Assembly (NCBI RefSeq): GCF_900101985.1
Contig: NZ_FNAR01000004.1
Span: forward strand, 1-64,000
Source of the DNA: Bhargavaea beijingensis
GTDB lineage: Bacteria; Bacillota; Bacilli; Bacillales_A; Planococcaceae
Direction: 5' to 3'
Length of the DNA stretch: 64,000 bases
Of this stretch, positions 53,481-58,706 are shown in pieces. The notes under the pieces are model-generated. The model saw only the letters and a program-made list of their open reading frames with translations, was not told the DNA's origin and made no database searches. Both the position numbers and the translations under genes were made by a program. The stretch's first letter is position 1, and the number at the start of each line of letters is the position of its first letter.

Positions 53481-53675
53481 TCACGTCCTGTAGATCGTGA
53501 AAACAGCCGTTTCCTGATCTTCCGGGTCGAGCGCCAGGCCGAACATCAGGTCGTCTTCCTTCAATGTCCGGTTGAGCGCATCAACGATTTTGTAAAGGTC
53601 CGGCTGATACTTGACCTTGACTGTGTTCACAATTTCAATTCTGCTTTCCATATTAGACCTGCCTTCTGTCTTCAT
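53481..53675 (-). CDS. ypmA: YpmA (DUF4264)
   Basis: A 64-residue protein of the YpmA/DUF4264 family: MESRIEIVNTVKVKYQPDLY, then KIVDALNRTLKEDDLMFGLALDPEDQETAVF. Function unknown. The position between dinG and ypmB is exactly that of B. subtilis ypmA. Its ATG lies inside the last bases of dinG's frame (4-bp overlap 53672-53675), indicating translational coupling. Confidence 0.85.
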   Translation of the reverse strand: MKTEGRSNMESRIEIVNTVKVKYQPDLYKIVDALNRTLKEDDLMFGLALDPEDQETAVFTIYRT

Positions 53676-56455
53676 ACTTCGTCATTATACCAACTTTCCA
53701 ATTCAATCACCATATCGGCGAGGCCGACTTTCTCGACCGGAACGGGCGGCAGTGCGCGGATAAACTCGCTGCCGTATGATTTCTTTTCAATCCGGCGGTC
53801 CAGGACGATGTAAGCGCCACGATCGGCAGTGGAGCGGATCAGCCGCCCGAATCCCTGGCGGAACTTGATGATGGCCTCCGGCAGGGAAAGTTCCTGGAAC
53901 GGGTTTTTCCCGGAGGCAGCGATTTTTGCCGCTCGCGCCTTGAACAGCGGGTTCTCCGGAGAACTGAATGGCAGCCGGACGACGATGACGGCTGCCAGGG
54001 CATCCCCCGGCGCGTCGACGCCCTCCCAGAAGCTGTCCGTGCCGAATAGGACGGAATGGCTGAACCGCTGAAACGACTTCAGCAAGCGCATCCGGCTCCC
54101 GGGCGTAATCCCCTGCGCAATCAGCATATACTCCGCGAGCAATTCACTATCCACGATCAGCTCGTAAGTTTTGCGGAGCATGTCATGGGAGGTGAAGAGC
54201 ACGAAGCACCTGCCGCCAGTCGCGATCACCGCCTGGACAACCGCATCGGCAACGGATTCGATATATTCCTGCTGCGGAACATTCAGGATATCCGGCATAT
54301 CGCTGACGATGAACATTTTCGCCCCCCGGTAAAATTCCGGAGGTGCGGTGAACTTCCGGATCTCAACCGTCTCGGGAAGGCCGATCTGATCGGCGATGAA
54401 TCGCTCCCTGCCCGGGAGAGAAAGCGTCCCGGAAGTCCAAACCACGCCAAATCGCCCGTCCGGGTTCACCGCTTTCCGGATCATGCCGGAAACGTCCGCC
54501 GGCTGCCGGACTATCTTCAGACTGCCAGGGATGCTTCTCATATCCGCCTCGATCCAGGCAGCCGCATCATCCATGCCCGCCGGGCCAAACAATTCCATCC
54601 AGCCGGCAGCCTGGAGTCTGATTTCGCGGATCCAATGCTGCCATTCTGACAGGAACCTGGCTATTTCAGGCTCATGGTGCCAGGAAGAGACGAGCGGCAC
54701 AGTGAGTTCCGTGACTTTGTCCAGATACGCGTACAACCGCTCGCCCGCCTCCCTGCACACATGAACAAGCGGTTCGAGATCAGCAAGCGCATACGTCCGT
54801 TTTTGTTCATGCGGGCGATCCTCTCCCAACGTCTGGATGAGTAGCTGGATGCCCTCGAAAGCGGCATCGAATGCATCCATCGCCCGTTCGTACTGTTCGG
54901 TCGCACGTACGGCTTCCCGCTCTCCGGGCATGCCGTTTTTGCGGGCAAGTGAAACAAACCTGTCCTGAAGAAGGCCCTCGCCGGACCTGCCCATCTGGCC
55001 GATCGTGTACTTAAAGTCTGTGTACGAAAAGAGCGTCTCCGCATGGGAGCGCGCCGCCGTGATAAACTGGTGGGCCTCATCAATGATCATTCCCGACAGA
55101 GGCGGAAAAGGAGACTTGCCCCTGTCCTGCGCTGAAAGGAGCATCGCATGGTTGGTCACAATGAGATCCGAATTCCTCGCAAAATCCAGTGTCCGGAGAT
55201 AAAAGTCTATCTTCTCCAGTTCCCCGTCCCGGACGGCAGCCCGGTATTTGCGGATTTTGTCCAGGAACAGCCGGCCGCCGCCGGAAACATTGAGTTCTTC
55301 AAGATCTCCGGTCTTGGTTCCCGCCAGCCAGACCACCACCTGCAAGATCGCAAGAGTTTCGTCATAAGACTCATCGGTCGCCGCCAGGATGCCGGCAAAC
55401 CGCTCGAGATCGATATAATGGCCGACCCCCTTCAGGAGGGCAGCACGCAGCGGTACGCCGATGGCCCGCTCCGCCTTCTCCAAATCACGACCGATGATCT
55501 GCTCGGTCAGGTGGTTGGTGTACGTGCTGATAACAGCCGGTTTTCCTTCACGCAAAGCGTATACCGCGGCCGGGAGAAGATAAGCGAAGGTTTTGCCGAT
55601 GCCGGTCGCGGCTTCGGCCGCGAGCTCGGACTTCAACTCGAGCGTATGGTGCACAGCATCCATCATCGCGCTTTGTGCAGGCCGCTCCTCATACGGATCA
55701 AACGCATGCCGCAATAACGATTCCTTCTCCTGAGGGTCCCCGGGATAGGAGATATCGGCAGTGATCCTTTTTTTTTGATGTGGCGGCTCTTTTATGGCCA
55801 TGCCTTTCCAGACCAGATAGCCGCCTTCAGTGGCGGCATGCCTGCGCTTTTTCCTGAGCGCGCTGTAGAACAATGAGCTCAGGTCCGATTTCAGTCGGAA
55901 TGACCGCTTATGGAGAAGGGAGAGCGTCGGCTCCGGAAGCCGTTCGGTCTCTTTTTGCAGGCGGATCAGGAGTTCGGCGGTCGCTTTGGCATCCTCAATG
56001 GCGCGGTGGGCGTTTTCCAGGCCGATGCCGAATTCTGCGGCAATATCCTGAAGTTTGAAGCTTGGTGCGGACGGACAAATCACTTTTGCGAGTTCCACCG
56101 TATCGATTGTTTCCCCGCTCCATTTGGGCAGCCCCGCCCGCCGGAATTCATGCTGCAGGAACGGCAGGTCAAACGACACATTGTGGGCGACAAACACGCA
56201 GCCCTCCAGCCACTCTCTGATCTCGGCGGCCCTATCCTCGAATATGGGAGCATCCGCCACATCGCTGTCGCGGATGCCGGTCAGGTTGCTGATGAAAGCG
56301 GGAATTTTCCGTCCGGGATTAAGAAAAGTGGAGTATGTTCTCGTCACGGTTCCGTTTTCCACGAGCGCCATGCCGATCTCGATCATCCTGTCTCCGCTTT
56401 TCGGTGAATGTCCGGTCGTCTCAAGATCCACGACCGCATATCGTTTACCATCCAT
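53672..56455 (-). CDS. dinG: DinG-type helicase with DnaQ-like exonuclease domain
   Basis: A 927-residue protein. N-terminal DEDD exonuclease domain (about 1-165, VVDLETTGHSPKSGDRMIEIG, AHNVSFDLPFLQHEF, AHRAIEDAKATAELL) fused to an XPD-type helicase with P-loop AATGIGKTFAYLLPA, DEAH box MIIDEAHQF and late motifs GTDSFWEGVDAPGD and RQGFGRLIRS. The region between P-loop and DEAH box contains no cysteine cluster, so unlike the helicase at 33854 it should not carry [4Fe-4S]. Repair and 3'-5' exonuclease roles are known for the family. Located downstream of panD as in B. subtilis. Confidence 0.93.
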   Translation of the reverse strand: MDGKRYAVVDLETTGHSPKSGDRMIEIGMALVENGTVTRTYSTFLNPGRKIPAFISNLTGIRDSDVADAPIFEDRAAEIREWLEGCVFVAHNVSFDLPFLQHEFRRAGLPKWSGETIDTVELAKVICPSAPSFKLQDIAAEFGIGLENAHRAIEDAKATAELLIRLQKETERLPEPTLSLLHKRSFRLKSDLSSLFYSALRKKRRHAATEGGYLVWKGMAIKEPPHQKKRITADISYPGDPQEKESLLRHAFDPYEERPAQSAMMDAVHHTLELKSELAAEAATGIGKTFAYLLPAAVYALREGKPAVISTYTNHLTEQIIGRDLEKAERAIGVPLRAALLKGVGHYIDLERFAGILAATDESYDETLAILQVVVWLAGTKTGDLEELNVSGGGRLFLDKIRKYRAAVRDGELEKIDFYLRTLDFARNSDLIVTNHAMLLSAQDRGKSPFPPLSGMIIDEAHQFITAARSHAETLFSYTDFKYTIGQMGRSGEGLLQDRFVSLARKNGMPGEREAVRATEQYERAMDAFDAAFEGIQLLIQTLGEDRPHEQKRTYALADLEPLVHVCREAGERLYAYLDKVTELTVPLVSSWHHEPEIARFLSEWQHWIREIRLQAAGWMELFGPAGMDDAAAWIEADMRSIPGSLKIVRQPADVSGMIRKAVNPDGRFGVVWTSGTLSLPGRERFIADQIGLPETVEIRKFTAPPEFYRGAKMFIVSDMPDILNVPQQEYIESVADAVVQAVIATGGRCFVLFTSHDMLRKTYELIVDSELLAEYMLIAQGITPGSRMRLLKSFQRFSHSVLFGTDSFWEGVDAPGDALAAVIVVRLPFSSPENPLFKARAAKIAASGKNPFQELSLPEAIIKFRQGFGRLIRSTADRGAYIVLDRRIEKKSYGSEFIRALPPVPVEKVGLADMVIELESWYNDEV

Positions 56456-56772: not shown

Positions 56773-56967
56773 TCAGTAAATAGTCGCTTCCGGCTCGTAG
56801 CCGATGACTTCATCGATCCGGTTGTTTACTCCCATCAGCACGATGTTCGGCCTGTGCTGTTCCGCTTCTCTCGCATCGACATGGACGTAGCTGAGGATGA
56901 TGACGATGTCACCGGGCTGGACAAGACGGGCGGCGGCTCCGTTGACACACATGACCCGGCTTCCCTT
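56773..56967 (-). pseudogene. panD: Truncated panD (aspartate 1-decarboxylase), C-terminal half only
   Basis: The last 64 codons read [33 protein letters not shown], and end NNRIDEVIGYEPEATIY, a clear match to the C-terminal half of PanD (family form [16 protein letters not shown]). The N-terminal half, including the Gly-Ser self-cleavage site that forms the pyruvoyl cofactor (about residue 25), is missing. Immediately before it the frame meets a TGA, and the upstream DNA is the end of panC in another phase. PanD normally has about 127 residues. This gene cannot make beta-alanine as it stands. Confidence 0.85.
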
Positions 56968-57808
56968 TCAGCGGAATCAGGATGTTGTCGATCAGGCGCG
57001 CGCCGGAAAACCGGACCGCCGCGGCGATGATGGCTTCCCGCGATTCCGAAGAAAGCGGGAAAAGGGATGGGTATTCAAGGATTTCCGCGTAATCGGTCTC
57101 TGCCCCAGGGATGCTTCCGAGACTGTGGCCGACTGTGCCAAGCGCCAGTTCCGCATCGCCGGTTTCCCGGAGCACCCTGGCGCCTTCACGGAGCGCTTCA
57201 TAGATGGAGGGCGCTTGCCGCCTCTCTTGGGCAGTCAGCCGCACATTCCGCGAGCTTTTCGCCAGGCCGTCTTTTTCCCGGACGGTCGGCACACGCCGGA
57301 TTTCCAGCGGGAAGTTGTAGTCCCTGACAAACGTTTCAATGATAGCCAACTGCTGTGCGTCCTTCTGGCCGAAGTAGGCCCGCTCAGGCCTTGCCAGGTG
57401 GAACAGCTTGGTAAGGACCTTCAGGACGCCGTCAAAATGACCCGGACGGCTTGCGCCGCATAATACGCCCGCCTGCCGGCCCGGCAGGATGCGGATATCA
57501 CTGTCTTCCGGATACATTTCTTCAGACGACGGATGAAACAGGAGGTCGACGCCCGCTTTTTCCGCGAGTTCCGCGTCCCGCTCCAAATCCCTCGGGTAGC
57601 CCTCGAAATCTTCGCCCGGCCCGAACTGTGCAGGGTTCACAAAAATGCTCATGATGACAACGTCATTTTCTTTCCTTGCTTCTGCCGCAAGCGCCAGATG
57701 GCCTTCGTGAAGAAAGCCCATCGTCGGGACAAAGCCGATGCTTTTCCCTTCCGACGCAAGGCGTCTTGCCGCTTGCGCCATGTCGGCGACTTTCTCAATG
57801 CGCTTCAA
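56909..57808 (-). CDS. panC: Pantothenate synthetase
   Basis: A roughly 299-residue ATP-dependent ligase joining pantoate and beta-alanine. It has the HIGH-type motif [47 protein letters not shown] and the KMSKS-like region KSSRNVRL. The normal C-terminus is reached at [13 protein letters not shown]; the following 15 or so residues ([16 protein letters not shown]) are out-of-frame translation of panD DNA. TTG at 57808 has GGAGGGG six bases upstream. It overlaps the panB stop by 14 bp. Confidence 0.92.
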
Positions 57809-58643
57809 CGGGATCCCCTCCATACAATTTCCCTGCCTCTTCCTCTTTCATCGTGAAGCGGTGTGCTTCTGTCGGGAAAGAACCGTCCCTCACCGCTGAT
57901 GCGTAGGCAGTGATGCCATCATGGATCGGCGTGCCGGCATCGGCAAACTGGCGGACGAACTTCGGCACATGGTGGCTTCCATAGCCGACCAGGTCATGGA
58001 AGACGAGCACTTGGCCGTCTGTTTCCGAACCGGCCCCGATCCCGATGACGGGGATCGACAGCTCTCCGGTGATCCGGCCGGCCAGTTGGTGCGGAATGCA
58101 TTCAAGGACAAGCATGCAGGCACCGGCCTCCTGGACTTCTTTTGCCTCCCGGATGAGCCGGAGCGCATCTTCCGCCGTCTTGCCCTGTACTTTGTACCCG
58201 CCTGTCACGCCGGCTGACTGCGGCAGGAGCCCGAGGTGTGCCACAACCGGGATTCCCGCCGAAACGAGCCTCCTGATGACGTCTGTGACGATTCCCGCAC
58301 CCTCCAGTTTCAGGGCGTCCGCTCCGGTTTCACGGAACATGCGGACGGCCGCTTCGAGCGTCCGGTCGATACTCCCATGGTAAGATCCGAACGGCATGTC
58401 CACCACCGTGAATGTCTGTCCTGCTCCGCGTCGTACCGCCTTGCCGTGATGGATCATGTCCTCCACCGTCACCGGGACGGTCGATTCATAGCCTAGCACG
58501 ACCATCCCGAGAGAATCGCCGACAAGCAGGACCTCGATTCCAATTTCGGCTGCCATTTTCGCCGTCGGAAAGTCGTACGCCGTCATCATCACAATTTTTT
58601 CACCGTTCTTCTTTTTGTTCATGAGATCTGCAGTGGTGATCAT
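57795..58643 (-). CDS. panB: Ketopantoate hydroxymethyltransferase
   Basis: A 282-residue TIM-barrel enzyme transferring a hydroxymethyl group from methylene-tetrahydrofolate to ketoisovalerate. It has [42 protein letters not shown] (metal site Asp), [23 protein letters not shown] and [18 protein letters not shown], all at expected places. ATG at 58643 is preceded by AAAGGAG. First gene of the panBC(D) unit; no other pan gene is nearby. Confidence 0.96.
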
Positions 58644-58670
58644 CTGTTCTTCTCCTTTCCTGGAGAAAAC

Positions 58671-58706
58671 CAAAAGCCCTCCCGCCAAAAAAATGGCAGA
58701 AGGGCT
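58671..58706 (-). terminator. Rho-independent terminator of birA
   Basis: On minus, AGCCCTTCTGCCA and TGGCGGGAGGGCT enclose a T-rich loop and are followed by TTTGG. It separates birA from panB, so the pan genes have their own promoter in the 190 bp further on. Confidence 0.78.

Follow-up and report, generated by a model that had tools for sequence, protein, structure and literature searches.

We analyzed a 64,000-nucleotide stretch of the Bhargavaea beijingensis genome (the window), in which panD, the gene for the aspartate decarboxylase that forms beta-alanine, a component of pantothenate (vitamin B5), is reduced to a fragment adjoining panC. The window is part of a 187-kb contig (contig 18) of the source genome, G000, a 2.99-Mb draft of 43 contigs that is 99.8% complete by the tool's figure. 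The comparison set comprised the eight genomes of the genus, namely G000 and its relatives G001 to G007, of which G007 is the closest (88% identity in the flanks of the panD joint). Genes were assigned with Pfam and NCBIfam profiles, and cut-off refers throughout to the family score cut-off in bits. The gene order on the minus strand is panB, panC, and the panD piece, with the following features.

56773..56964, minus strand: panD remnant, the last 63 codons plus the stop, ending EPEATIY, lacking the panD start and the Ser that forms the pyruvoyl group
56773..56952, minus strand: 59-codon open frame within the remnant, opening at an ATG where 7 of 7 other genomes have an Ile codon
56960..56965, minus strand: joint of the deletion (coding-strand sequence GGGAAG), at which the two ends of the missing 202 bp come together
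56909..57823, minus strand: panC, an open frame of 304 codons counted from the ATG; its C-terminal tail is changed and extended, being encoded by out-of-phase panD DNA
57795..58688, minus strand: panB, complete by family score, with a provisional start codon position

Read from stop to stop, the panC frame of G000 contains 312 codons, compared with 298 to 301 in the other seven genomes, and its stop lies 11 to 14 codons later than in these relatives. The PanC C-terminus, which in G004 reads ...IDNILVNLEGKRS*, is replaced in the window by an out-of-phase tail derived from panD. Because 202 is not divisible by 3, the end of panC reads panD DNA in a changed phase, just as an earlier note on this DNA had described. 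That note also considered PanC itself to be complete, and the profile scores agree: this pantoate-beta-alanine ligase has a full domain, scoring 322 bits with TIGR00018 (cut-off, 212.75) and matching positions 3 to 267 of the 268 in Pfam PF02569. A scan of named genomes yielded distant relatives, the best among the matches listed being Lysinibacillus telephonicus, with 60% identity in PanC.

The C-terminal half is all that panD retains. A search of the whole G000 genome with the Pfam Asp_decarbox profile (PF02261) gave one match, at profile positions 63 to 114 of 115. The remnant's score of 57.2 bits is above the Pfam cut-off of 25, yet the domain is not full-length, and with the NCBIfam panD model (TIGR00223) it scores 64.9 bits, below the cut-off of 106. 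This is plainly a genuine half gene and not a chance match. The Gly-Ser pair at which PanD cleaves itself, contained in YVGSIT in intact relatives, falls inside the lost DNA. The earlier note had recognized both the halved gene and the absent cleavage site. A second intact panD, which it thought worth looking for, was not found by this search in the G000 genome as assembled. The 59-codon frame within the remnant is not thought to be functional.

In six of the seven other genomes, panD spans profile positions 1 to 114 (the exception is G006, described below). Compared with these six, G000 has lost the panD start and the first half of the gene, including the Gly-Ser site. The gap measures 202 bp relative to G001, G002, G003, G004, and G007, 199 bp relative to G005, and 200 bp relative to G006; on the panC-panB side, the alignment with G007 is ungapped over 1495 bp. 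These alignments suggest a single deletion of ~202 bp, which would have extended from just before the panD start, at the end of panC, to the Gly-Ser codons in mid-panD. At the joint, the longest exact in-register direct repeat measures 7 nt in G001 (GGGGAAG), 5 nt in G007 (GGAAG), 4 nt in G004, and 1 to 2 nt in G002, G003, G005, and G006. As a background, matches of at least 5 nt occur at the same distance at 0.67% of positions in G007, and matches of at least 6 nt at 0.25%. The deletion may therefore have arisen between short direct repeats, by slippage or by recombination, as the earlier note had guessed. The repeat is suggestive only; since just two of the seven relatives have it, this route is plausible, not proven.

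The gap could instead be an assembly or consensus error in a strain that has an intact panD, and the G000 assembly is indeed a draft of 43 contigs. However, the joint lies well inside its 187-kb contig, the repeat there is at most 7 nt and thus far shorter than reads, and the alignment to G007 continues without a gap through the adjoining 1495 bp. The missing DNA was not found elsewhere in G000 with a query of 221 bp of G007 around the lost piece, in a search run without a positive control. The remnant also differs in four residues at positions that are constant among the five close relatives; the same count for those relatives is zero to three. We saw nothing that points to an assembly error and regard one as very unlikely. 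Still less credible is a retained function for the remnant as a small protein of 59 to 63 residues. Its reading frame is unbroken and has an initial ATG specific to the lineage, but the domain has lost its first half along with the pyruvoyl Ser, and three residues differ at sites identical in the other seven genomes. Among the six close genomes, the base changes unique to this lineage in the remnant number three non-synonymous and zero synonymous, compared with 15 and 20 for the five relatives pooled (Fisher p = 0.097). By parsimony, the G000 branch of the remnant has 6.5 non-synonymous to 3.5 synonymous changes and that of G007 has 6 to 7; the corresponding figures for the end of panC are 6 to 8 and 4 to 8. 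The ratio of non-synonymous to synonymous substitution rates (dN/dS) between the remnants of the window and G007 is 0.37, the highest of 28 pairs (others, 0.04 to 0.33). These counts lean toward a real pseudogene of some age, without significance.

The remaining rival concerns what might stand in for PanD. The earlier note had proposed a pyridoxal phosphate (PLP)-type decarboxylase or uracil breakdown as possible sources of beta-alanine, and at the family cut-offs the gene content of G000 supports neither. The PLP-type aspartate decarboxylase family (PF00282) has no match in G000; matches occur in four of the eight genus genomes, all under the cut-off. For uracil breakdown, the best dihydropyrimidinase match in G000 scores 200.5 bits against a cut-off of 393.25, which only one of ten genomes passes (G003), and the best PreA match scores 145.8 bits against 335, which none of the ten passes. 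We infer that these two sub-cut-off matches are pyrC and pyrD. A complete reductive uracil route (PreA, dihydropyrimidinase, and beta-ureidopropionase) was not found in G000, where the amidase family alone passes. This N-carbamoyl-amino-acid hydrolase-type amidase (TIGR01879) is over the cut-off in all eight genus genomes, with two copies in G000. The copy on G000 contig 27 has an ortholog in 8 of 8 genomes (its own copy counted); in seven of them, this amidase gene and a panE-like gene are divergent neighbors. The exception is G006, where no panE was seen in the stretch around the conserved amidase and no genome-wide search was made.

Stretch L113, 9009-11458: divergent pair of amidase and panE-like gene; counterparts in stretches L115 and L140-L144; amidase alone in stretch L114

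An unrecognized enzyme of the genus, such as this amidase, might make beta-alanine, with panD being redundant and lost more than once. The universal presence of the amidase and its conserved neighbor would fit, as would the two different panD lesions among the eight genomes. A precedent is Rhizobium etli, which lacks panD and makes beta-alanine via an uracil-breakdown enzyme, with AmaB mutants studied, according to the available part of that report (PMC7142369). Against this, G000 has neither dihydropyrimidinase nor PreA at the cut-off, the best solved relative of the contig-27 amidase is an N-carbamoyl-L-amino acid hydrolase, and panD is kept in six amidase-bearing genomes. We consider this explanation unlikely. 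Elsewhere in the genus, G001 contig 6 (133105-137496) carries an amidase together with genes that resemble PreA and hydantoinase but score below the respective cut-offs, and on G003 contig 3 (90318-92986) an amidase adjoins a dihydropyrimidinase over the cut-off.

Genes for uptake and for the pantoate branch are well represented. The sodium/pantothenate symporter PanF (TIGR02119; cut-off, 328.05) is found in two copies in G000, at 696.6 and 694.4 bits, which by family score are predicted pantothenate symporters. PanF is far over the cut-off in all eight genus genomes, with one copy in each of the others, and 1 of 14 control genomes also exceeds it. A doubling of panF at the time of panD loss was considered and rejected, since the two G000 copies share 86% identity with one another and one is 95% identical to the G007 copy, which makes them old paralogs. 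Proteins of the BioY family, some of which might carry pantothenate in the manner of PanU, number four in G000, four in G007, three in G003, and two in each of the other five genomes. The ilvC gene is present in all eight genomes, and a panE-like gene in G000 is over the cut-off. Contig 41 of G000 also carries candidate genes for beta-alanine use: a permease at 673.8 bits, just under the gamma-aminobutyric acid (GABA) permease cut-off of 678.1, a class III aminotransferase at 782.1 bits (cut-off, 488), and the methylmalonate-semialdehyde dehydrogenase MmsA at 630.5 bits (cut-off, 448.5). The cluster on this contig includes a regulator that is presumably of the PucR type.

G000 contig 41, stretch L112, 2610-15070: further cluster of GABA-permease-like transporter, solute symporter, amidohydrolase, C45 acyltransferase, amidase, regulator, methylmalonate-semialdehyde dehydrogenase, and class III aminotransferase

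We conclude that panD of this strain is probably a pseudogene from which no PanD is made, with coenzyme A (CoA) being supplied by pantothenate uptake and by PanC joining beta-alanine to the strain's own pantoate. The working supply would be pantothenate taken up by PanF-type and perhaps BioY/PanU-type carriers. The complete PanC would use beta-alanine that is taken up or salvaged, and salvage could proceed by cleavage of pantothenate or another N-acyl-beta-alanine. Judged by gene content, uptake of pantothenate or beta-alanine fits better than a PLP decarboxylase or uracil breakdown. Several observations weigh against this interpretation. The lesion is known from one strain's draft assembly alone, the repeat at its joint is missing from five of the seven relatives, and the sign of relaxed selection in the remnant is not significant. 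In panC, too, non-synonymous changes make up a large share of those unique to one lineage (10 to 9 in G000 and 10 to 6 in G007), so part of the remnant signal may stem from the lineage. PanF is present in all seven relatives, six of which keep panD, so that having uptake genes is not enough to account for the loss. Finally, a residual beta-alanine route may exist, as was inferred for Bacillus subtilis, whose panD mutant is viable on minimal medium according to the available text of that study (PMC11487621). Absence of PanD therefore need not mean auxotrophy. The earlier note stated that the strain needs beta-alanine from another source; that need is uncertain.

One of the two panF genes of G000 heads a row of five genes that suggests how beta-alanine could be obtained.

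G000 contig 41, ~65.9-72.1 kb (stretches L150, 8903-13446, and L154, 146-1582): panF, M20 amidohydrolase, tartrate/isopropylmalate-type dehydrogenase, short-chain dehydrogenase/reductase (SDR), and aldehyde dehydrogenase

From panF through the M20 gene and the dehydrogenase to the SDR, consecutive genes overlap by 4, 8, and 4 bases; the aldehyde dehydrogenase follows the SDR after ~200 bp that look hairpin-like by eye. All five genes occur together in G000, G003, G004, G005, and G006. G001 and G002 have panF and the M20 gene, with the rest of the row not in the fetched stretches. In G007, panF was seen without an M20 gene in the fetched stretches, and no genome-wide M20 search was made. The row's aldehyde dehydrogenase in G003 is split over two frames by an apparent frameshift (stretch L158, 13846-16260). 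The M20 protein belongs to the ArgE/DapE family (TIGR01910, 271.1 bits; cut-off, 217.6), and ten aligned members share conserved residues that we take to be the M20 metal ligands.

Classical pantothenate breakdown in Pseudomonas proceeds through pantothenase (EC 3.5.1.22), D-pantoate 4-dehydrogenase, aldopantoate dehydrogenase, and 3,3-dimethylmalate dehydrogenase, that is, an amidohydrolase, an alcohol dehydrogenase, an aldehyde dehydrogenase, and a decarboxylating dehydrogenase. All four of these enzyme classes are found beside panF. We tentatively propose, giving it somewhat less than even weight, that the row is a pantothenate catabolic operon. In it, the M20 protein would be the pantothenase, the SDR the D-pantoate 4-dehydrogenase, the aldehyde dehydrogenase the aldopantoate dehydrogenase, and the remaining enzyme the 3,3-dimethylmalate dehydrogenase. 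Release of beta-alanine would make panD expendable, and hence it would have been broken twice in the genus. Other features count against this proposal. The third gene passes the tartrate dehydrogenase cut-off (TIGR02089, 489.9 versus 470.4 bits), which speaks for a substrate other than 3,3-dimethylmalate and lowers the likelihood of a catabolic operon of this kind. The SDR and the aldehyde dehydrogenase have no telling family name, and M20 enzymes of the ArgE/DapE group may have a wide range of N-acyl amino acids as substrates. Both genomes with a broken panD (G000 and G006) carry the full row, and G007, with no M20 gene in the fetched stretches, keeps panD; yet G001 to G005 have the M20 gene and keep panD as well. 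The eight genomes are thus compatible with a link between the row and panD, and go no further.

Relatives of the row proteins also occur on plasmids. The M20 protein had 19 matches among plasmid records, to which we added the best 25 of 482 for the dehydrogenase, and 5 of these 44 were examined. Three of the five are without annotation and were checked by tblastn with the row proteins. PanF had no match in the five records, and none of them carries the whole row. On a Deinococcus plasmid, a distant M20 relative (42%) adjoins PreA and dihydropyrimidinase, a place where an enzyme that frees beta-alanine would be expected. On a Thermus oshimai plasmid, another distant relative (39.5%) adjoins an SDR and a methylmalonate-semialdehyde dehydrogenase, with ATP-binding cassette (ABC) transporter genes. 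In searches of the literature on pantothenase and pantothenate breakdown, with most subscription papers outside their scope, no paper naming a pantothenase gene was among the matches listed.

G006, a second species of the genus, has a different lesion, as assembled: a 2-bp deletion leaves panD in two overlapping pieces in different frames, at profile positions 1 to 45 and 41 to 114.

G006 contig 8, 69935-70274 (stretches L008, 1501-1722, and L009, 1501-1635): broken panD with the 2-bp deletion

G000 (2.99 Mb) and G006 (3.0 Mb) are, by rounded sizes, the smallest of the eight genomes, the others having 3.1 to 3.3 Mb. We also surveyed 247 genomes of the family that are at least 95% complete, taking the best panD match in each. 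A match was found in 241, with an E-value of 3.4e-48 or lower in all except G000 (3.3e-15) and G006 (1.4e-27), that is, in 239 of the 241. Among the six genomes without a panD match, two keep panC (G017 and G018) and four have no panC match. Within the family, few genomes combine panC with an absent or incomplete panD, but this strain is not the only one, and the loss of panD is itself ordinary in kind. Downstream of panD in the window lies a 927-codon frame (53672-56455, minus strand) that, judged by its start, presumably encodes a DinG-like fusion of exonuclease and helicase.

Where beta-alanine comes from in genomes that have panB and panC and lack an aspartate decarboxylase is a known puzzle. 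G000 still displays the lesion, and two of the usual answers find no support there. If the M20 enzyme does cleave pantothenate, pantothenase activity would gain a gene, and a link between consuming the vitamin and losing its synthesis would become testable. The row of genes with panF is an interesting lead, and the best use of the panD lesion is as a pointer to it.

A survey of gut bacteria lists, in its available text, 95 strains that are positive for panBC and negative for PanD and PanP, their beta-alanine source being given there as unknown (PMC6593275). G000 resembles these genomes in keeping the pantothenate pathway otherwise while missing the decarboxylase. It differs in that the gene there is simply missing, whereas here half of panD is still in place and the event can be read. 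Like R. etli CFN42 as presented in the accessible part of its report (PMC7142369), G000 has no working panD, keeps panB and panC, and has an amidase of the same broad kind. By the title of that report, however, R. etli relies on a uracil-breakdown enzyme, beta-alanine synthase, and G000 lacks two enzymes of that route at the cut-off. The B. subtilis panD mutant, as far as the available text describes it (PMC11487621), likewise lost PanD in a bacterium able to import pantothenate and beta-alanine; that mutant, however, was made in the laboratory. A parallel to the proposed role of the row comes from a 2023 paper, the available portion of which states that Escherichia coli, like four of six additional species, resynthesizes pantothenate from the beta-alanine moiety of the vitamin (PMC10393543). 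Such a shunt from pantothenate to beta-alanine would keep panB and panC useful without PanD. The pantothenase protein is called unidentified in that portion, with citations of work from 1966 and 1979 (PMC10393543), and G000 offers a candidate for this step in the M20 enzyme that stands in a row with panF.
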